40,834 nucleotides of DNA. Origin: Burkholderiales bacterium. Its GTDB lineage: Bacteria; Pseudomonadota; Gammaproteobacteria; Burkholderiales; Burkholderiaceae_E. The stretch covers positions 1-40,834 of the forward strand of contig RPRK01000021.1 in assembly GCA_003818495.1 (NCBI GenBank), written 5' to 3'. A program made the position numbers and the translations under genes. The notes beneath the pieces were generated by a model that was given only the letters and a program-made list of their open reading frames with translations, had not been told where the DNA came from and did not search any database. Below, piece after piece: positions 275 to 16,922 of this stretch. Numbering within the stretch: position 1 is the stretch's first letter; every line of letters starts with the position of its first letter.

Positions 275-1591
275 TCAGCCGCGGTGCAGGAAGTCCACCG
301 TGCCCGGCCGCCCCTCGAGATGCAGCGTCGCCGTCGCCGGGCGCTGCTCGGCGATCACCCGGCCGCGACGGACCACCGCCAGCCGCGCCGCGCGCAGCCG
401 GATCGCCTCGACCGGATGGCCCGCCTGCAGCAGCACCATGTCCGCGCGACAGCCCGCCTCGAGCCCGTAACCCTCCAGCCCCAGGATCCGCGCCGGCGTC
501 GTCGTGACCGCGTCGAACGCCGCCCTCATGCCCGCCTGCCCCGTCATCTGCGCCACCTGCAGCCCCATCGAGGCCACCTCGAGCATGTCGCCCGAGCCCA
601 TCGGGTACCACGGGTCCATCACGCAGTCGTGGCCGAAGGCGACCGGCACGCCGGCCGCCATCAGCTCGGGCACCCGCGTCATGCCGCGCCGCTTCGGATA
701 GGTGTCGTGCCGCCCCTGCAGCGTGATGTTGATCAGCGGGTTCGCGATCGCCGCGACGCCCGCTTCGGCGATCAGCGGGATCAGCTTGGACACGTAGTAG
801 TTGTCCATCGAATGCATGGACGTCAGGTGCGAACCGGCGACCCGCCCCTGCAGCCCCAGCCTGCGCGCGTGGTACGCCAGCGTCTCGATGTGGCGCGACA
901 TCGGGTCGTCCGACTCGTCGCAGTGCATGTCGACCCGCAGCCCGCGCGCGGCGGCGATCTCGCACAGCAGCCGGACCGACTCGCGGCCGTCCTCCATGGT
1001 GCGCTCGAAGTGCGGGATGCCGCCGACCACGTCAACGCCGCGGTCGAGTGCACGCTCGAGCAGCTGCAGCGCGCTGAGGCTGCACGACGGATCGTCGCGG
1101 CGCGGCTCGTAGCGCAGCACGCCGTCCTGCGGGAACGCCACCAGCTGCAGATCGAGGTAGGGGGCGACCCGGCGCCTGACCTCGAGGAGCGCGTCGACCG
1201 CGAGCAGCCGCGGGTCCGAAGTGTCGACATGGCTGCGGATCGCGAGCAGGCCGCGCGCCACCGCCATGTCGCAGTAGGCGAGCGCGCGTTCGACGATCGC
1301 CTCCTGGGTCAGGTGCGGCTTGAGTTCGCCCCACAGCGCGATGCCCTCGAGCAGCGTGCCCGACTGGTTCAGCCGCGGCAGGCCGAGCGAGAGCGTCGCA
1401 TCCATGTGGAAGTGCGCATCGACGAAGGGCGGTGCGAGCAGCATCCCGGCCGCGTCGAGCTCGCGCCCGGCGGCAGCGCCTGCCAGCACCGCATGCGGCT
1501 CGACCGCCTCGATGCGCTCGCCGCGCACCGCGACGTCGATGCCGGTGCGCCCGTCGGGCAGCGTCGCGTTCCGGACGATCAGGTCGAACAT
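275..1591 (-). CDS. CodA-like cytosine/nucleobase deaminase (amidohydrolase)
   Basis: This is a 438-aa amidohydrolase that resembles cytosine deaminase over its whole length. Metal ligands are visible as H60 and H62 (DAHFHMD), H223 with E226 (MHCDESDD), H255 (SHLTSMH) and D322 (FGHDCVMDPW). They line up with E. coli CodA H61, H63, H214, E217, H246 and D313. CodA Q156 is matched in VAFPQDG and W319 in DPWYP. CodA D314, which contacts the cytosine ring, is replaced by C323, so the true substrate may not be cytosine. It is the last gene of the importer operon: its ATG follows the permease stop by 3 nt, and there is no local signal peptide. The likely role is cytoplasmic hydrolytic deamination of the imported base. 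Family is certain; specificity is not. Confidence 0.88.
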   Translation of the reverse strand: MFDLIVRNATLPDGRTGIDVAVRGERIEAVEPHAVLAGAAAGRELDAAGMLLAPPFVDAHFHMDATLSLGLPRLNQSGTLLEGIALWGELKPHLTQEAIVERALAYCDMAVARGLLAIRSHVDTSDPRLLAVDALLEVRRRVAPYLDLQLVAFPQDGVLRYEPRRDDPSCSLSALQLLERALDRGVDVVGGIPHFERTMEDGRESVRLLCEIAAARGLRVDMHCDESDDPMSRHIETLAYHARRLGLQGRVAGSHLTSMHSMDNYYVSKLIPLIAEAGVAAIANPLINITLQGRHDTYPKRRGMTRVPELMAAGVPVAFGHDCVMDPWYPMGSGDMLEVASMGLQVAQMTGQAGMRAAFDAVTTTPARILGLEGYGLEAGCRADMVLLQAGHPVEAIRLRAARLAVVRRGRVIAEQRPATATLHLEGRPGTVDFLHRG

Positions 1592-1594
1592 GGC

Positions 1595-2539
1595 TCAGCG
1601 CTCCCCTTTGCGATACGGCTTCATCAAGGCCTGCGGATAGGCGGCCCGGCGCGCGACCAGCACCAGCGCCAGGATCGACAGCAGATACGGCAGCATCAGC
1701 CAGAGCTGGTAGGGCACCTCGCTGCCCGCCCCCTGCTGCAGCCTGAGCTGCATCGCGTCGAAGCCCGCGAACAGCAGCGCCCCGAGCAGCGCCTTGCCGG
1801 GTCGCCACGAGGCGAACACCACCAGCGCGACGCAGACCCAGCCGCGGCCGTTGACCATGTTGAAGAAGAACGCGTTGAAGGCGGCCAGCGTCAGGAACGA
1901 GCCGGCGATGCCCATCAGCGCCGATCCGGCCGCGATCGCCGCGATCCGGGTGGCGGCCACCGGGATGCCGGCGCTCTCGGCAGCCGCGGGGTTCTCGCCC
2001 ACCATCCGCAGCGCCAGACCGGCGGGCGTGCGGTACAGCAGCCAGCCGATCGCGGGCACCAGTGCGAAGGCCAGCAACGCCAGCGGCGTCTGCGCGGCGA
2101 GGATCGGACCGACGACCGGGATCGCGTCGAACGGCGCGCCGATCGCGGTGAACGGCTCGATGGTCGGCGGGGTGCTCACCTTGGGGAAGCCGACGCGGTA
2201 CGCGTAGTAGGACAGGCTGGTAGCGAACAGCGTGATGCCGAGACCCGAGACGTGCTGCGACAGCGCCAGCACCACCGTGAGCACGCCATGCAGACCGCCG
2301 AGCAGCGCACCGACGAGCGCCGCCGCGAGCACCCCGCCCCAGAGCCCCGCGCCCTGGTAGGCGGCGAACCAGCCGACGAAGGCGCCCGCGACCATGATCC
2401 CCTCGATGCCGAGGTTGAGCACGCCGGCGCGCTCGCACAGCAGCACGCCGAGCGTGCCGAGCACCAGCGGCGTGGCGATGCGCAGCACGGCGATCCAGAA
2501 GTTCGCCTGCAGCAGGGTGTCGACGAGGTCGGCGAGCAT
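1595..2539 (-). CDS. BMP-type ABC transporter permease, second subunit (NupQ/YufQ-like)
   Basis: This 314-aa hydrophobic inner-membrane permease belongs to the branched-chain/BMP family. The family signature GVLNLGIEGIM is seen near residues 39-49, and about eight to ten membrane segments follow. I chose the ATG at 2537-2539 because it follows the upstream permease stop by 2 nt and begins directly with the first hydrophobic segment; the open frame runs further upstream only as a shadow of the neighbour. It pairs with the permease at 2542-3603 to form the channel. The gene is followed 3 nt later by the CodA-like deaminase, so the transported compound is probably a nucleobase or nucleoside. That is inferred from context. 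Confidence 0.9.
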   Translation of the reverse strand: MLADLVDTLLQANFWIAVLRIATPLVLGTLGVLLCERAGVLNLGIEGIMVAGAFVGWFAAYQGAGLWGGVLAAALVGALLGGLHGVLTVVLALSQHVSGLGITLFATSLSYYAYRVGFPKVSTPPTIEPFTAIGAPFDAIPVVGPILAAQTPLALLAFALVPAIGWLLYRTPAGLALRMVGENPAAAESAGIPVAATRIAAIAAGSALMGIAGSFLTLAAFNAFFFNMVNGRGWVCVALVVFASWRPGKALLGALLFAGFDAMQLRLQQGAGSEVPYQLWLMLPYLLSILALVLVARRAAYPQALMKPYRKGER

Positions 2540-2541
2540 GC

Positions 2542-3583
2542 TCAGCGCCTGCGGATGCGGTACTGCGCGAGCATCGTCGCCACCAGCATCGCCAGCAGCG
2601 ACACCGACACGATCACGTCGGCGATGTAGCTCGGCACGGCGACCTCGCGGCTCATGCTGTCGGCACCGACGAGCATGCCGGCGACGAAGACCGCGGCGCC
2701 GACGACGGCGAGCGGGTGCAATGCGGCCAGCATCGCGATCACGATCCCGGCGTAGCCGTAGCCCGGCGACATGTCGAGGGTCACGTAGCCGGTCCGGCCG
2801 GCGACCTCGGAGACCCCGGCCAGTCCGGCGAGCGCCCCCGACAGCAGCGCCGCGCGCAGCATCACGCGACCGACCGGCACGCCGACGAAGCGCGCCGCCT
2901 CCGGGCTCGCCCCCACCGCGCGCCACTCGAAGCCCCAGGTGGTGAAGCGCTGCACGGCCCAGACGAGGACCGCGAGGCCGACCGCCCACAGCAGCCCCGC
3001 GTGCACGCGCGACTTCTCGAGCAGCCGCGCGAACTCGAGCTCCGGATCGAGGGCGACCGACTGCGGCCAGCCCATCGCGGTGGGGTCCTTCATCGGTCCG
3101 TCGAGCATCCAGGAGACGAACAGCAGCACCACGAAGTTCATCAGCAGCGTGGTGACCACCTCGTCGACGCCGAACCGGTTGCGCAGCAGCGCGGGACCGG
3201 CGACGAGGGTCGCGCCCGCGGCCATGCCCGCCGCCACCATGCCGGCGAACAGCAGCGGCAGCGGCGCGTCGAAGCCGCTGCCCTCGTGAAGCCCGCCGAC
3301 CGCGACCGCCGCGAGCGCGCCGAGGTAGAGCTGCCCCTCGGCGCCGATGTTCCAGAAGCGCGCGCGGAACGCCACCGCGGCGGCGAGCCCGGTCAGCATC
3401 AGCGGCGTGGCGCGGGTCAGCGTCTCGGTCAGCGCGAAGCGCGAGCCGAAGGCGCCGTCGAACAGCAGCCCGTAGGTGCGCCCCACCGGTGCACCGGCCC
3501 ACGCGACCAGCAGCGCGCAGGCCGCGAGGGTGACCGCGACCGCGACCAGCGGCGCGACCAGCATCGCCGTGCGCGAGGCGGTC

Positions 3584-3603
<20 letters not shown>
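2542..3603 (-). CDS. BMP-type ABC transporter permease, first subunit (NupP/YufP-like)
   Basis: This 353-aa membrane permease is the larger of the two in the importer. The family motif around FWNIGAEGQLYLGA lies about one third of the way in, and many hydrophobic segments follow. I chose the ATG at 3601-3603 because a strong ribosome-binding site, AAGGAGG, sits 6 nt upstream; a more upstream ATG at 3625-3627 lacks one. The start overlaps the end of the ATPase gene by 20 nt, which suggests translational coupling. It acts in the inner membrane with the permease at 1595-2539. Substrate is inferred from the neighbouring deaminase to be a nucleobase or nucleoside. Confidence 0.9.
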
Positions 3604-5146
<1,543 letters not shown>

Positions 5147-5150
5147 CGCG

Positions 5151-6164
5151 TCACTTGGCGTTCGGCTTCGGCTGGTTGTCGTCGATCTTGACGGTGAACT
5201 TGCCGTCGTAGATCGCCTTCTCGCGATCGCGGACCTTCTTCACCAGATCGGCCGGGATCTTCGACTCGAAGGTGCCGAGCGGCGACAGGGCCGAGCCCTT
5301 GTACTTCATCATCGAGAACTGGCCGTAGTCCTCGGCCTTGAACTTGCCGCCCTTGACCGCCTCGAGCGCGCGCTCGATGGTCGGCTCCATGTTCCACAAC
5401 GCCGAGGCGACCACCGTCTCGGGGTACTTGTCCTGGGTGTCGATCACGTTGCCGATCGCGAGCTTGCCCCGCTCCTTGGCCGCGTCGGACACGCCGAAGC
5501 GCTCGGCGTACATCACGTCGGCGCCCTTGTCGATCATCGCGAACGCCGCCTCCTTGGCCTTGGGCGGGTCGAACCAGGAGTTGATGAAGGTCACCATGAA
5601 CTCGACCTTCGGATTGACCTCCTTGGCGCCGGCCATGAACGCGTTCATCAGCCGGTTGACCTCGGGGATCGGGAAGCCGCCCACCATGCCGATCTTGCCG
5701 GTCTTGGACATGCCGCCGGCGATCATGCCGGTCAGGAAGGCCGGCTCCTGGATGTAGTTGTCGAACACCGAGAAGTTCGGCGCCTGCGGCTTGCCGGACG
5801 AGCCCATCAGGAAGGAGATCTTCGGATAGTCCTTGGCGACCTTGCGGGCGGCCGCCTCGACAGCGAACGACTCGCCGACGATGAACTGGGCGCCCTTCTC
5901 GGCGAACTGGCGCATCACGCGCTCGTAGTCGGCGTTGGCCACGCTCTCGCTGAATTCGTAGTCGATCGCGCCGCGGTCCTTCGCCGCATTCAGCGCCTTG
6001 TGAATCCGGCTCACCCACTGCTGCTCGACCGGCACGGTGTAGACCGCGGCGACCTTGATCTTCGACTGCGAGAAGGCCGTCATCGGCACGCCGGCGGCGG
6101 CCAGGACGGAGGCGGACACGGCGGCGGACAGGACGGCTCGGCGAGCGCGCGGCATGGTGGGCAT
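5151..6164 (-). CDS. BMP-family (basic membrane protein) substrate-binding protein
   Basis: This 337-aa protein is the binding component of the importer. It has an N-terminal signal peptide: basic residues (PRARR), an Ala/Val-rich core to about residue 30, and a likely cut near AFS-Q. There is no lipobox cysteine, so it should be soluble in the periplasm rather than a lipoprotein as in Gram-positive PnrA/Med. The mature part has the family pattern of FIVGESF, ISFLMGSSG, MIAGGMSKTGKIGMVGGF and a conserved NSWFDPPKAKEAA stretch. The family binds nucleosides, nucleobases or related purines. The ATG at 6162-6164 is supported by GAGG 8 nt upstream. It is the first gene of the operon and has a TATAAT element ahead of it. 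Confidence 0.93.
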   Translation of the reverse strand: MPTMPRARRAVLSAAVSASVLAAAGVPMTAFSQSKIKVAAVYTVPVEQQWVSRIHKALNAAKDRGAIDYEFSESVANADYERVMRQFAEKGAQFIVGESFAVEAAARKVAKDYPKISFLMGSSGKPQAPNFSVFDNYIQEPAFLTGMIAGGMSKTGKIGMVGGFPIPEVNRLMNAFMAGAKEVNPKVEFMVTFINSWFDPPKAKEAAFAMIDKGADVMYAERFGVSDAAKERGKLAIGNVIDTQDKYPETVVASALWNMEPTIERALEAVKGGKFKAEDYGQFSMMKYKGSALSPLGTFESKIPADLVKKVRDREKAIYDGKFTVKIDDNQPKPNAK

Positions 6165-8368: not shown

Positions 8369-9577
8369 TCAGAACAGTTCGAGCTCCGCGTCGTTCGACT
8401 TCGGGGCCAGGTGCCCGGCCGCCACGAGCGCCTCCCAGCCCAGGACCTGATTGCGGCCGGTCTCCTTGGCGTGATAGAGCGCCGCATCGGCGCGGCCGAA
8501 CGCGCCCGCGGTGTCGTCGAGCGGTCCGATCCGGGTGTAGCCGATGGACACCGTGACCCGTCCCACGCGCGAGAACGTCCGCGCCTCGACGCTGGCACGC
8601 AGCCGCTCCAGAGGCGAACGCGCGACATCGATGGCCGTTCGCGAGAGCACGACGACGAACTCCTCGCCGCCGAACCGATAGAGCCGGTCGATCGGGCGGA
8701 ACTGCGCGCGCATCATCTGGGCGAGCAGCAGCAGCACCTCGTCGCCGTACAGGTGGCCGTACTCGTCGTTGATGCGCTTGAAGCGGTCGACATCGACCAC
8801 CGCGAGCCAGTGCGGCGCGTCCTGAGGGGCGGGGGTCCGGGACTCGTCCACGTCGGCCGGCGCATCGACGACGGCCTGCTCGCGGAGCATCCGGCTGAAG
8901 TCGGCGTCGAAGGTCCTGCGGTTGCGCAGCGAGGTCAGGGTGTCGTGCTCGCCGTAGTCGAGCAGCGCCAGATGGTTCCGATAGATCCGCAGCAGGTTGG
9001 CGACCGCCGCCTCCCGCTCCGGCGGCAGCATCGCGTCGACCCCCACGGCTTCGATCAGCCCGATCGGCTCGCGTTCGGAGAGCACCGGGAACAGGTAGCC
9101 GCAGCGCGGCGCGTCGCGGGTCGACAGCCGCAGCGCGGCGCGCTCGTCGAGACAGCGAGCGTGCGAGCCCGACACCGCCGGGAGCAGGCGTGGGTCTCCC
9201 GTCTCGCGCAGACGCTGGGTGCCGTCGGCGGTGGCACGCAGCACCGGCCACAGGCGGGCGCCGTCCTCGCCGGCCACCAGACGCATGTAGGTCACGCTGC
9301 TGGCACCGAGCTGCGCGCGCAGCAGTTGCGCGACCGAACCTTCGAGCGAATCCCGGTCGCGCTCCGCGGTCAGGTCTGCGACGGTCTCGATCAGGGTGGA
9401 TGTCGGCACGGAGAGCACGGGGCGGCGAGTCGATACGGTGGGCGGCGTCGAAAGCGGGTCGCCGGAACGACGGTCCGGGCAGGACACGTCGGCCAGGGTT
9501 CCAACTGATGGGTTATCGGCCCGCCCGGGCCCGGACTTGAGCGATCTGCGATCCGCGCTCAAGACGGACGCCGCCAC
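8369..9577 (-). CDS. Diguanylate cyclase with N-terminal GAF-like domain (GGDEF)
   Basis: This protein, up to 402 aa, makes cyclic di-GMP from GTP. The C-terminal GGDEF domain shows VVDVDRFKRINDEYGH, the active-site GGEEF and the closing DAALYHAKETGRNQV pattern. An RPID motif lies exactly five residues ahead of GGEEF; this is the RxxD inhibitory site, so product feedback is likely. The region from about residue 60 to 210 looks like a GAF-type sensor with no membrane segment, so the enzyme should be cytosolic. The start is uncertain: the longest frame opens with GTG at 9575-9577, but a GTG at 9407-9409 (VPTSTLIETV) fits the start of the folded region better. Neither has a good ribosome-binding site. 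The input signal is unknown. Confidence 0.85.
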   Translation of the reverse strand: MAASVLSADRRSLKSGPGRADNPSVGTLADVSCPDRRSGDPLSTPPTVSTRRPVLSVPTSTLIETVADLTAERDRDSLEGSVAQLLRAQLGASSVTYMRLVAGEDGARLWPVLRATADGTQRLRETGDPRLLPAVSGSHARCLDERAALRLSTRDAPRCGYLFPVLSEREPIGLIEAVGVDAMLPPEREAAVANLLRIYRNHLALLDYGEHDTLTSLRNRRTFDADFSRMLREQAVVDAPADVDESRTPAPQDAPHWLAVVDVDRFKRINDEYGHLYGDEVLLLLAQMMRAQFRPIDRLYRFGGEEFVVVLSRTAIDVARSPLERLRASVEARTFSRVGRVTVSIGYTRIGPLDDTAGAFGRADAALYHAKETGRNQVLGWEALVAAGHLAPKSNDAELELF

Positions 9578-12399: not shown

Positions 12400-14073
12400 T
12401 CAGACGCGGTTGCGGTCGAACTGGGGTTTTTCGCCCTTGCCGTACAGCTTGAGCGCGCCCTTGTCGCCGACGGCGTTCGGCCGCTGGAAGATCCAGTTCT
12501 GCCAGGCGGTGAGCCGGCCGAAGATCCGGGTCGCCATGGTCTCGGGGCCGTTGAAGCGCAGGTTCGCCTCGAGGCCGGTCAGCGCGTCGGGCGACATCGC
12601 CGCGCGCTCCTCGATCGCGATGCGGACCTCGTCGGCCCAGTCGATGTCGTCGGGGGCCGAGGTGACGAGGCCGAGCGCGAACGCCGCGTCCGCGTCGATC
12701 GGCTCGCCCGTGCGGGCGCGGACCGCGTCGAGTGCGGGCGCCTCCTCGTAGAAGCGGCGCGCGAGGCGCGACTGCTCGGTGGCCATCGGGTAGAGCCCGA
12801 AGTTCACCTCGGTGGCGACCAGGCGCGGCGCGCGCGCGGGCTCGTCGGGCAGCGCCAGCATGTAGGTCCGGTCGGCGGCGAGCGCCAGCTCGAGGAAGGT
12901 GCCGGCGAAGCACGAGCCCGGCTCGATCAGCGCGAACAGCGTGCGCGAGGACACGTCCAGGCGCGACAGCGTGCGGCGCAGCAGGCCGATGGTCTCGCGC
13001 ACGAACCAGTGCTCTCGGTGCGCGAGCAGCGTGGCATCGGCCGCGAGCACCGCCTGCGCATCGCCCTCGGTCTTGAGCAGCCAGGTGCCGATCTCGAGCT
13101 CGTTGGTGCGCATCGACAGGATGGCGTCATCGAGCTCGCGGGCCATGGCGAGCGGCCACCAGCCCGCGCCGGCCGCGACGATCGCCTCGACCGTCGTCGG
13201 CTGCGCGGCGGCGGGCGCCTTGAGGGTGAAGGTGGCGGTGCGCGCGGCTCGGTCGATCGTCACGACGACGTTCGGATAGCGCAGCGCGTCGGCCTCGATC
13301 GTGCGCTCGAGCGGCGTCAGCGCGACGCCCGCGGCACCCGCCGGCCGGTCGCTCGTCGCGGCGAGCGCCGCGGCGCGGTCGCGCACGGCCTGCCCGAAGA
13401 CCGCGGGCTTGGCGATCGCATCGACCAGCCGCCAGTCCTGGGCCTTCTTGCCGCGCACGCCCTCGGTCGTCGTGCAGAACACGTCGGCGAGGTCGTGGCG
13501 CACGTGGCGCTTGTCGGTCAGGCGCGTGAGGCCGCCGGTGCCGGGCAGCACGCCGAGCAGCGGTACCTCGGGCAGCGACACCGACGAGCTGCGGTCGTCG
13601 ACCAGCAGGATCTCGTCGCAGGCGAGCGCGAGCTCGTAGCCGCCGCCGGCGCAGGCGCCGTTGACCGCGGCGAGGAACTTCAGGCCCGAGTGCCGGCTGC
13701 TGTCCTCGATGCCGTTGCGCGTCTCGTTGGTGAACTTGCAGAAGTTCACCTTCCATGCGTGCGGCGAGACGCCGAGCATGAAGATGTTCGCGCCCGAGCA
13801 GAAGATGCGCTCGCGCAGGCTCGTGACCACCACCACGCGGACCGACGGATGCTCGAAGCGCACGCGGTTCAGCGCGTCGTGCAGCTCGATGTCGACGCCG
13901 AGGTCGTAGCTGTTGAGCTTGAGCTTGTAGCCGGGACGCAGGCCCGCGTCCTCGTCGACGTTCATGGCGAGCGTGGCCACCGCACCGTCGACCGACAGGG
14001 TCCAGTGGCGATAGCGCGAGGGCTCGGTCTGGTACTCGACGCGGGCGAGCTCGGGAGCGAACGGTGCGTTCAT
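12400..14073 (-). CDS. boxC: 2,3-epoxybenzoyl-CoA dihydrolase BoxC
   Basis: BoxC (557 aa) hydrolyses the ring of 2,3-epoxybenzoyl-CoA, releasing formate and 3,4-dehydroadipyl-CoA semialdehyde. It is a large crotonase-superfamily enzyme with two crotonase-like halves. Oxyanion-hole and active-site stretches are seen in ERIFCSGANIFMLG, NGACAGGGYELALACDEI and VPLLGVLPGTGGLTRL, and the C-terminus GALKLYGKGEKPQFDRNRV is characteristic. I chose the ATG at 14071-14073 (MNAPFAPEL), which has GGAGA 8 nt upstream; the frame extends further only through the promoter. It is the first gene of boxC-boxB-boxA and has its own strong promoter overlapping a presumed BoxR site. Confidence 0.96.
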   Translation of the reverse strand: MNAPFAPELARVEYQTEPSRYRHWTLSVDGAVATLAMNVDEDAGLRPGYKLKLNSYDLGVDIELHDALNRVRFEHPSVRVVVVTSLRERIFCSGANIFMLGVSPHAWKVNFCKFTNETRNGIEDSSRHSGLKFLAAVNGACAGGGYELALACDEILLVDDRSSSVSLPEVPLLGVLPGTGGLTRLTDKRHVRHDLADVFCTTTEGVRGKKAQDWRLVDAIAKPAVFGQAVRDRAAALAATSDRPAGAAGVALTPLERTIEADALRYPNVVVTIDRAARTATFTLKAPAAAQPTTVEAIVAAGAGWWPLAMARELDDAILSMRTNELEIGTWLLKTEGDAQAVLAADATLLAHREHWFVRETIGLLRRTLSRLDVSSRTLFALIEPGSCFAGTFLELALAADRTYMLALPDEPARAPRLVATEVNFGLYPMATEQSRLARRFYEEAPALDAVRARTGEPIDADAAFALGLVTSAPDDIDWADEVRIAIEERAAMSPDALTGLEANLRFNGPETMATRIFGRLTAWQNWIFQRPNAVGDKGALKLYGKGEKPQFDRNRV

Positions 14074-14140
14074 CGGGGGTCTCCGGTGGGGGCGTGCGGC
14101 GGCGGCGAGTCGGACGTGCGCGGCGTCGCCTGCCCTGCGA

Positions 14141-14176
14141 TGACATGCATCATACTGCACACTTGTCGGGTGTCAA
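14141..14176 (-). promoter_or_regulatory. boxC promoter with overlapping BoxR-like operator
   Basis: On the minus strand TTGACA (14171-14176) and TATGAT (14149-14154) are separated by 16 bp, a strong sigma-70 promoter about 70 nt before the boxC ATG. The -10 lies inside the block GCAGTATGATGCATGTCA (14141-14158), which contains TGCA-N6-TGCA. The block is nearly repeated over the boxR -10 (15212-15229; 14 of the first 16 bases agree). BzdR/BoxR regulators are known to use TGCA-containing operators. I infer that BoxR represses here by covering the -10. Confidence 0.75.
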
Positions 14177-14183
14177 GCGCAGA

Positions 14184-14199
14184 GCACGCATTTTACTGC
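14184..14199 (-). promoter_or_regulatory. Second, weaker BoxR-like operator upstream of boxC
   Basis: The minus strand reads GCAGTAAAATGCGTGC. This agrees with the boxC operator block at 12 of 16 positions and keeps the GCAGTA...ATGC frame. It lies 41 bp upstream of the main block, close to four helical turns, so both sites face the same side of the DNA. That spacing would suit cooperative binding of two regulator dimers. Binding is inferred. Confidence 0.45.
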
Positions 14200-14210
14200 C
14201 TACCGCGCGT

Positions 14211-15182
14211 TCAACGGCCGGTCGCCTCGCGGACCGCCTCGCGCAGGGCGTCGAACGCCTGCCCGAGGCTGCGCCCGCTGGTGTCGACCTGGCGATCGGC
14301 GCGGCCGTAGAACGCGGCGCGCCCCGCGAGGATGCGCTTGAGATCGTCCATCGCCTCCTGGTTGCCCGCCATGGGGCGCAGGTCACCCTGGGCGACGACG
14401 CGCTGCATGTGCTCCTCGGGCGAAGCCTTGAGCCAGACCGTCGTGCAGTGCGCCAGCAGCAGGTTGAAGGTCGCCGGATCCGAGACGATGCCGCCCGGGG
14501 TGGCGATCACCGCGTCCGGATAGAGCTGGATGGTCTCCTCGAGCGCGCGCCGCTCGTAGCGCCGGTAGGCCGCGGGGCCGAGCAGGCCGTGGATCTCGGC
14601 GAGGCTGCAGCCGGCGACGCGCTCGAGCTCCCGGTTGAGCTCGACGAACGGCAGCGCGAGCGCGTCGGCGAGCATCCTGCCGAGCGTCGACTTGCCCGCG
14701 CCGCGCAGACCGACCAGCGCGATCCGCCCGGCCCTCGCCTCGGCGCGGGCCGATTCGCCGAACAGGTCACCGAGCGCGATCCTCGCGCGTCGCAGCTCGT
14801 CCTCGTCGCGACCGGCGAGCAGGTCTCGGATCAGCAGCCACTCGGGACCGGCCGTGGTCTCGTCGCCGATCAGCTCGGCCAGCGGTGCGCCGAGCGCCTG
14901 GGCGACCTGACGCAGGACCAGGATCGAGGCGTTGCCCACGCCGAGCTCGAGATTGGCGAGGTGGCGCTCCGACACCTCCGAGGCGGACGACAGCGCACGG
15001 CGCGTCATGCCCCGGCGCGCCCGCAGCGACCGGGCCCGCTCGCCGAGCGCGACCAGGAACGGGTCGCGCGGCGGCTCGGCGCGCTCGGCGCGCTCGGCGG
15101 GTGACGGGATCACCGACGCTTCATCCGCCGCCGCCCGATCCATCGCAGCCTCGCCCGGTGAATCCGGGCCGTGTTCGTCCAT
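14211..15182 (-). CDS. boxR: BoxR transcriptional regulator, HTH fused to shikimate-kinase-like domain
   Basis: BoxR (323 aa) is the benzoyl-CoA-responsive repressor of box genes. It has an XRE-type helix-turn-helix at about residues 48-104 (MTRRALSSASEVSERHLANLE), a short linker, and a shikimate-kinase-like domain with P-loop GLRGAGKST at about 158-166. In the BzdR/BoxR family the kinase fold serves as the benzoyl-CoA sensor. I chose the ATG at 15180-15182 because AGGAGG lies 4 nt upstream; a longer frame would need an initiator without one. Its promoter carries the same sequence block as the boxC promoter, so autoregulation is likely. The gene ends 137 bp before boxC and could also be read through into it. 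Confidence 0.93.
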   Translation of the reverse strand: MDEHGPDSPGEAAMDRAAADEASVIPSPAERAERAEPPRDPFLVALGERARSLRARRGMTRRALSSASEVSERHLANLELGVGNASILVLRQVAQALGAPLAELIGDETTAGPEWLLIRDLLAGRDEDELRRARIALGDLFGESARAEARAGRIALVGLRGAGKSTLGRMLADALALPFVELNRELERVAGCSLAEIHGLLGPAAYRRYERRALEETIQLYPDAVIATPGGIVSDPATFNLLLAHCTTVWLKASPEEHMQRVVAQGDLRPMAGNQEAMDDLKRILAGRAAFYGRADRQVDTSGRSLGQAFDALREAVREATGR

Positions 15183-15211
15183 GCCGCCTCCTGGCCTGCT
15201 CGAGCCGCCGA

Positions 15212-15229
15212 GAACATGCATTATAGTGC
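15212..15229 (-). promoter_or_regulatory. boxR -10 element with overlapping BoxR-like operator
   Basis: The minus strand reads GCACTATAATGCATGTTC, with a perfect TATAAT at 15220-15225 about 40 nt before the boxR ATG. No good -35 lies upstream. The block is nearly identical to the one on the boxC -10, and it directly abuts the plus-strand TTGACA of bclA. A regulator bound here could therefore affect both divergent genes. Confidence 0.7.
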
Positions 15230-15258
15230 TTGACAGTCCCTTCGACGGATTGTAACTT
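15230..15258 (+). promoter_or_regulatory. Candidate bclA promoter
   Basis: TTGACA at 15230-15235 is a perfect -35. The -10 is poorer: TAACTT at 15253-15258 (17-bp spacing) or TGTAAC at 15251-15256 (15 bp). The -35 is adjacent to the boxR operator block, so bclA is probably under the same control. The leader to the bclA ATG would be about 70 nt. Confidence 0.5.
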
Positions 15259-15335
15259 CAATTCATGAAGCGGATTGCCGTTCACGGCGACCACCATCGC
15301 CGCCGCCCGCCGCGCGGCACGAGGAGACCCCCCGC

Positions 15336-16922
15336 ATGACGATCGCCGCGCCGCCCGAGCGGTTCAACTTCGCTGCGCACCTGTCCACGCTGAACGCCTC
15401 GCGCGCCGCCCGGACCGCCTACGTCGACGACACCGGCTCGATCGGCTATGGAGAACTCGACGCACGCGCGGCGCGCTTCGCGGGCGGTCTCGGCGCACTC
15501 GGCCTGCGGCGCGAGGAGCGGGTGCTGCTGCTGATGCACGACTGCATCGACTGGCCGGTCGCCTTCCTGGGCTGCCTGCGCGCGGGGGTGGTGCCGGTGG
15601 CGGTCAACACGCTGCTGACGGTCGACGACTACGCCTACATGCTCGACCACAGCCGGGCGCGGGCCGCGATCGTGTCGGCCGCGCTCGTGCCGATCCTGGG
15701 CCAGGCGATGGCCCGGGCGACCCACGAGGTGACGCGCCTGCTCGTCTCCACGCGCGGCGCACCGTTCTGCGCCGATCCGTCGGTCCCGTCCGACGACCTC
15801 GAGGCCTGGCTGCCCGGGCAGCCGACCGCGCCGCCGGCCGACACCCGCGGCGACGACATGGCGTTCTGGCTCTACTCGTCGGGCTCGACGGGCCGCCCGA
15901 AGGGCACCGTGCACACGCACGCCAACCTGTACTGGACGGCGGCGCTCTACGGCGGACCGGTGCTCGGCCTGACCGAGGCCGACGTCTGCTTCTCCGCGGC
16001 CAAGCTCTTCTTCGCCTACGGGCTGGGCAACGCGCTGACCTTCCCGCTGTCGGCGGGCGCCACCACGGTGCTGATGGCCGAACGCCCCACCCCCGACGCG
16101 GTGTTCCGCCGCTGGACGGGTCCGCAGCGCCCGACCGTGTTCTTCGGTGCGCCCACCGGCTACGCGGGCATGCTCGCCTCGGCCGCGCTGCCCGCCCGCG
16201 ACCAGGTCGCGCTGCGGCTGTGCTCGTCGGCCGGCGAGGCGCTGCCGCGCGAGATCGGCGAACGCTTCGGCGCCCGTTTCGGATGCGAGATCATCGACGG
16301 CATCGGCTCGACCGAGATGCTGCATGTCTTCCTGTCGAACCGGCCGGGCGACGTGCGCTACGGCACCACCGGCAAGCCGGTGGACGGCTATCGCGTGGAG
16401 CTGCGCGACGACAGCGGCGCGCCGATCGAGGGCGCCGAGCAGATCGGCGACCTGTACATCGAGGGCCCGTCGGCCGCGCTGATGTACTGGGCCGATCGGG
16501 CACGCTCGCGCGCGAGCTTCCAGGGCGCCTGGACGAAGAGCGGCGACAAGTACTTCCGTGATGCCGACGGGTACTACGTCTACGCCGGGCGCGGCGACGA
16601 CATGCTCAAGGTCAGCGGGCAGTACGTGTCGCCGTTCGAGGTCGAGTCGACGCTGATGCAGCATCCGGCGGTCCTCGAGGCGGCGGTGATCGGCGTCGAC
16701 GACCCGCAGGGCCTGACGCGCGCCAAGGCGTTCGTCGTGATGAAGGATCCGGCCCACGCGACCGAGGCGATGTCGGCCGAACTGCAGGCCTTCGTCAAGG
16801 CCCGGCTCGCGCCGTTCAAGTATCCGCGCCAGATCGCCTTCGTGGTGGAGCTGCCCAAGACCGCGACCGGCAAGATCCAGCGGTTCCGGCTGCGCGAGGC
16901 CGAACGCGGGACGGGGACGTGA
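15336..16922 (+). CDS. bclA: Benzoate-CoA ligase
   Basis: This 528-aa enzyme activates benzoate to benzoyl-CoA with ATP and CoA, the entry step of the box pathway. It is an ANL-superfamily member: the AMP-binding loop SSGSTGRPKG is near residues 185-194, the motif DGIGSTEMLHVFLSN follows, and YYVYAGRGDDMLKVSGQYVSP leads to the C-terminal domain with the catalytic lysine in KTATGKIQR. The family-specific ERFNFAAH start and the total length fit benzoate-CoA ligase. GAGGAG lies about 9 nt before the ATG. It is divergent from boxR and overlaps the next gene by 4 nt (GTGA), so the two are translationally coupled. It acts in the cytoplasm. Confidence 0.95.
   Translation: MTIAAPPERFNFAAHLSTLNASRAARTAYVDDTGSIGYGELDARAARFAGGLGALGLRREERVLLLMHDCIDWPVAFLGCLRAGVVPVAVNTLLTVDDYAYMLDHSRARAAIVSAALVPILGQAMARATHEVTRLLVSTRGAPFCADPSVPSDDLEAWLPGQPTAPPADTRGDDMAFWLYSSGSTGRPKGTVHTHANLYWTAALYGGPVLGLTEADVCFSAAKLFFAYGLGNALTFPLSAGATTVLMAERPTPDAVFRRWTGPQRPTVFFGAPTGYAGMLASAALPARDQVALRLCSSAGEALPREIGERFGARFGCEIIDGIGSTEMLHVFLSNRPGDVRYGTTGKPVDGYRVELRDDSGAPIEGAEQIGDLYIEGPSAALMYWADRARSRASFQGAWTKSGDKYFRDADGYYVYAGRGDDMLKVSGQYVSPFEVESTLMQHPAVLEAAVIGVDDPQGLTRAKAFVVMKDPAHATEAMSAELQAFVKARLAPFKYPRQIAFVVELPKTATGKIQRFRLREAERGTGT

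Follow-up and report, generated by a model that had tools for sequence, protein, structure and literature searches.

Predicted BoxR operators on sigma-70 promoter elements in a box gene cluster of an uncultured Burkholderiales lineage

Introduction

BoxR of Azoarcus sp. CIB represses the box genes and responds to benzoyl-CoA (Valderrama et al. 2012, cited in PMC4424350 and PMC6449761). In the related BzdR system, operator region OR1 of the Azoarcus promoter PN overlaps the -10 and +1, and benzoyl-CoA is the inducer (PMC6678401). Suvorova and Gelfand (2019; PMC6449761) gave the BoxR/BzdR consensus as ATGCACTATAGTGCAT and described multiple sites, mainly 3-5 helical turns apart. The motif, its multiplicity and the 3-5-turn spacing are already published. 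A preliminary description of a 40,834-base stretch of Burkholderiales DNA (the window, meaning the whole stretch analyzed) proposed three operator-like blocks around boxR, two of them on the -10 elements of boxC and boxR. We compared this locus with related boxR loci and with the published operator.

Methods

Relatives were represented by the best 80 of 570 boxR loci, which are mutually related. The boxR-boxC gaps numbered 69, comprising 68 from the best 80 loci plus that of the window; the other 12 of the 80 had no usable gap, boxC being absent, only partly present, or separated by more than 700 bp. Clustering to non-redundant gaps used 67 of the 69, and the two gaps of 60 bases or fewer were omitted. 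Sequence upstream of boxR was lacking in one locus, L119. Sites were counted with the published consensus because the pattern derived from the three blocks was narrower: at one mismatch, only 7 of the 12 genus genomes gave sites, and its reversed control matched in 4 genomes. The composite of the boxR-bclA operator (op1) with a -35 was counted in 66 of 80 regions at a site cut-off of 11, the figure adopted here, or in 67 of 81 at the looser cut-off of 10. The adopted count takes in one doubtful region (L110, -35 ATGACA) and misses at least one other (L052), whose composite, a 19/20 match, lies beyond the edge of the extracted region.

Results

The genes boxC, boxB and boxA followed boxR, and bclA was divergent from them, which is the arrangement of a box divergon; BoxA, BoxB, BoxC and BclA all scored above their family cut-offs (Table 1). 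The regulator had the expected architecture, an N-terminal XRE-type HTH and a C-terminal shikimate-kinase-like domain. Its closest named relatives among the best 80 of 570 loci were Burkholderiales metagenome assemblies, with best-segment BoxR identities of 90 and 88%. On the minus strand beyond boxCBA (275-6164) were genes for an amidohydrolase, a permease, an ABC ATPase and a BMP-type substrate-binding protein, the last of which scored below its family cut-off. A GGDEF diguanylate cyclase gene was located just 3' of boxA (8369-9577, minus strand).

Table 1. Genes, promoter elements and predicted operators of the boxR region in window coordinates.
Feature	Position	Strand	Details
boxC, 2,3-epoxybenzoyl-CoA dihydrolase	12400..14073	-	TIGR03222 976.7 bits, cut-off 712.3
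BoxR-type operator on boxC -10	14145..14160	-	ATGCATCATACTGCAC on +; 12/16 to consensus
boxC -10 TATGAT	14149..14154	-	11/12 promoter match, sole one found in 13800-15600
boxC -35 TTGACA, 16-nt spacer	14171..14176	-	TTGAC kept in all 10 aligned sequences, the window among them
Upstream second BoxR-type operator for boxC	14186..14201	-	11/16; 41 bp from first
boxR, HTH + shikimate-kinase-like regulator	14211..15182	-	NF006015 443 bits, cut-off 204; PF01381, PF01202
op1, BoxR-type operator between boxR and bclA	15216..15231	.	14/16 to consensus
Possible boxR -10, perfect TATAAT	15220..15225	-	sequence
bclA -35 TTGACA	15230..15235	+	first two bases are the last two (TT) of op1
bclA -10 TAACTT, 17-nt spacer	15253..15258	+	weak, 3/6; position and TAAxTT kept in 7 aligned sequences, window included
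op2, degenerate operator over predicted bclA start	15265..15280	+	8/16 to consensus; 49 bp from op1
bclA, benzoate-CoA ligase	15336..16922	+	TIGR02262 752.5 bits, cut-off 375.25

When the whole window was scanned with the consensus, matches of at least 11/16 were found at the three blocks only, and this agreement with an independently published motif (12, 11 and 14 of 16) favors the proposal that the blocks are BoxR/BzdR operators. The sites resembled the TGCA-N6-TGCA palindrome; the boxC site alone had exact TGCA in both half-sites (14146-14159), and the upstream boxC copy was a weak match. Spacing at boxC fell within the published range, and in the divergon the only second site in the window was a degenerate one. 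The boxC and boxR blocks had been said to agree at 14 of their first 16 bases. It is the last 16 that agree at 14 (14143-14158 compared to 15214-15229); the first 16 agree at 12, and the full blocks (14141-14158 and 15212-15229) are identical at 14 of 18 bases. The third copy (14184-14199) agreed at 12 of 16 bases with each of the other blocks and, as described, was separated from the boxC copy by 41 bp.

A genome scan with the block pattern, which had been suggested as a check, returned the three sites plus one match with a single mismatch, and at two mismatches or fewer there were 14 matches in total compared to 9 for the reversed control. The one-mismatch match (C11:35501-35516, or L004:1501-1516) was intergenic and outside the box cluster, flanked by genes named by eye as LysR-like and HMG-CoA-lyase-like. 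One-mismatch matches in six other genus genomes were mostly on boxR-bearing contigs, with three elsewhere (G053 and G055).

Operators were conserved at the orthologous promoters of the best 80 of 570 loci. With the window included, one or more sites scoring 11/16 or above were present in 68 of the 69 boxR-boxC gaps, and 79 of 81 boxR upstream regions also contained sites, L119 accounting for one of the two misses. The 69 gaps held 138 sites, compared to approximately 2 per plain-base-shuffled set. Across these best 80 loci, the 51 kb of selected regions contained 123 positions of at least 13/16 and the remaining 589 kb contained 9; judging by coordinates, those 9 too were next to either end of boxR or the boxC start.

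A sigma-70 promoter of at least 9/12 was present in 61 of the 69 boxR-boxC gaps, window included, and 58 of those 61 had the first base of the -10 precisely at operator position 7 (best 80 of 570 loci). The operator core is -10-like in its own right, so the independent evidence in this register test comes from the -35. Among the non-redundant gaps of the same best 80 loci, TTGACA at 5/6 or better was found at spacers of 16-18 in 39 of 47, compared to 3 in total at 19 other spacers. Operators with a -35 also differed from the other operators of the same gaps (best 80 of 570 loci): position 11 was A in 31 of 39 of them compared to 15 of 61 (Fisher p ~1e-7), and they fitted TATAAT better forward than in reverse (25 vs 2; 11 vs 8 for the others). 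Most simply read, these sequences point to dual selection on the boxC -10 operator, as an operator and as a -10. The locked register and the directional skew uphold the earlier suggestion of steric repression at this element, and repression through covering of the boxC -10 is a well supported prediction.

The upstream boxC site had counterparts in near relatives, which carried an upstream partner 39-41 bp away that was mostly a stronger match (12-15/16; 11/16 in L045). Over the 69 gaps of the best 80 of 570 loci and the window, the promoter operator had a partner downstream only in 30, upstream only in 10, on both sides in 9 and on neither side in 10, and an operator with a -35 was absent from the remaining 10; the commonest distance to a downstream partner was 33 bp. 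The upstream geometry is lineage-specific, since 30 of 69 gaps had a partner only downstream, 10 had no partner and 10 had no operator with a -35. Judged from these counts, sites are generally paired, and the four-turn upstream site is a real but local form of this pairing.

On the divergent side, TTGACA began at 15230, directly after the boxR block, as had been described. This op1/-35 composite occurred in 66 of 80 regions, window included, or in 26 of 38 once redundant regions were collapsed, and was absent from 14 of 80 by the same test (best 80 of 570 loci). It was also present in 10 of 12 genus genomes, with none in the reversed control, and G049 and G052, the genomes that lacked it, were also without a boxR match above the family cut-off. 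A -10-like hexamer followed TTGACA, mostly at a spacing of 17 nt. The preliminary description had one site serving two divergent genes. This is plausible because the end of op1 is part of the divergent -35, but it is incomplete, as relatives mostly had two sites. Within the 67 composite-bearing regions (best 80 of 570 loci), a second operator of at least 11/16 was present over the predicted start, 49-51 bp from op1, in 52, and a second operator at 48-55 bp was found in 58. We read 15265-15280 in the window as a degenerate form of this op2, which was absent from the earlier list of blocks. In the closest relatives op2 was likewise only 8/16 to consensus; the window copy was identical at 13 of 16 bases to the op2 of L051, which itself scored 11/16. 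The op2 half-sites TTCATGAA and GATTGC were invariant in seven aligned sequences, in which nearly all of the -35/-10 spacer varied.

A 24-codon open reading frame (15265-15339) had its ATG at 15265 on the predicted bclA start and a TGA overlapping the bclA ATG. It was open at equal length in the window, L045, L046 and L029, ran in frame into bclA in L048, and met a stop after two codons in L051-type loci. We rejected it as a leader peptide, as differences were spread across the three codon positions and the majority of altered codons were non-synonymous.

An operator at boxD, which the preliminary description had raised, was not borne out. The boxD model gave 12 matches in the genome and none on this contig. 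The best candidate (C5:35546-37081) was PaaZ-like, scoring 701.6 with PaaZ (cut-off 562.8) and 594.5 with the boxD model (cut-off 444), and its 4.5-kb locus (L125) contained no BoxR site above 9/16. A true boxD could be missing, since the assembly is in 572 contigs.

Discussion

These results could be explained in more than one way. If the blocks arose by chance, or simply resembled promoters with no repressor involved, the pairwise 14/16 match would be the point in favor; taken alone it is only mildly unusual, for once the two intergenic regions had been shuffled the best 16-mer agreement still reached 14 in 2 of 60 trials. However, the match to an independently published motif, the concentration of sites in the boxR flanks (best 80 of 570 loci) and the conserved register across relatives all stand against chance, which we consider very improbable. 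Dinucleotide shuffles of the boxR-bclA gap scored above 12 in 0 of 2000 sets (observed 14), and those of the boxC gap reached 12 in 4 of 2000 and 11 in another 34 (observed 12 and 11 together). We regard it as highly probable that the three blocks are operators of the BoxR encoded between them and that they act by the repression mechanism set out below.

What op1 does for boxR itself is a separate question. A perfect TATAAT is indeed present where the preliminary description placed the boxR -10, but it comes without a clear conserved -35 and op1 shows no directional skew. No recognizable boxR -35 was found in the window, which has CCGTCG at the 17-nt spacer. Among the best 80 of 570 loci, a boxR-direction -35 of at least 4/6 at spacer 17 occurred in only 4 of 37 non-redundant sites, with a mean of 2.0 matches there compared to roughly 1-2 at the remaining spacers. 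TATAGT can be read on either strand of the operator consensus, and in these best 80 loci op1 fitted TATAAT about equally on the two strands (mean 4.95 vs 4.88 of 6). Autoregulation via a covered boxR -10 is thus without independent support, there being no recognizable -35 and op1 being symmetric. The boxR half of the repression reading is the weaker one, and the firmest link of op1 is to the divergent bclA promoter. One scenario is that op1 serves the bclA promoter alone, the boxR-strand TATAAT being a by-product of the core CTATAG and boxR being transcribed weakly from elsewhere. The symmetric op1 cores and the want of a clear boxR -35, set beside a divergent -35 fused to op1 in most regions of the best 80 of 570 loci, fit this scenario, whereas the perfect TATAAT of the window and the AGGAGG that precedes its boxR ATG do not, and neither do the boxR-direction promoters of at least 9/12 in 23 of 81 regions (best 80 of 570 loci), all at operator position 7, although the window is not among them; we treat it as possible but somewhat doubtful. 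Alternatively, the palindromic core of op1 could be a symmetric -10 driving both directions, so that operator and bidirectional promoter are one element. Pseudo-symmetrical bidirectional promoters of this kind have been described in E. coli (PMC12825309), and op1 resembles TATAAT on both strands; but the bclA direction has another conserved promoter (TTGACA, 17 nt, TAAxTT) approximately 30 bp away, and we find this explanation unlikely.

Returning to BoxR as repressor of both transcription units, we infer that in the absence of benzoyl-CoA a BoxR dimer on 14145-14160 would cover the boxC -10 and exclude RNA polymerase, and that another dimer, bound about four turns (41 bp) upstream, would stabilize it. 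In the divergon, a dimer on op1 would overlap the bclA -35 by two bases and cover the only good boxR -10-like hexamer; one site could therefore repress bclA and autoregulate boxR. The degenerate op2 over the bclA start may contribute a weak contact, and benzoyl-CoA would free the operators from BoxR. Binding, cooperativity, repression and the response to inducer are all predictions made from DNA sequence.

A further suggestion, which we put forward tentatively and at a little under even weight, is that BoxR operators have co-evolved with sigma-70 elements into hybrids. The boxC palindrome would have been bent to a directional -10, and the outer half-site in the divergon would have changed from TGCA to TGCT, its end becoming the opposite -35, so that the 20-bp ATGCACTATAGTGCTTGACA would be operator, boxR -10 and bclA -35 together in many Burkholderiales. 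The part of the literature that was searched made no mention of a register lock on the boxC -10 or of a fusion to the divergent -35. Recognition by repressor and polymerase on the same bases, as indicated here, would constrain the evolution of these promoters or their use as benzoyl-CoA sensors. The analysis also provides exact operator coordinates for the box pathway in an uncultured Burkholderiales lineage.

The find is real yet largely expected, because the arrangement is common to related bacteria. In the Betaproteobacteria BoxR/BzdR regulon (PMC6449761), boxD is in the divergent part, whereas here it was not found on the contig. Otherwise that regulon has, like this locus, boxR-boxCBA divergent from bclA, and several sites per promoter with the TGCA-N6-TGCA palindrome at a spacing of a few turns. 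Azoarcus PN (PMC6678401) has three operator regions that take four dimers, together with AcpR, in contrast to the two sites at boxC, and its OR1 has TGCA spacings other than those of the sites here. Induction of PN depends on its additional sites (PMC6678401). Like boxC, however, PN is paired with a related repressor, has OR1 on its -10, and carries TGCA-N6-TGCA sites upstream (OR2 and OR3).
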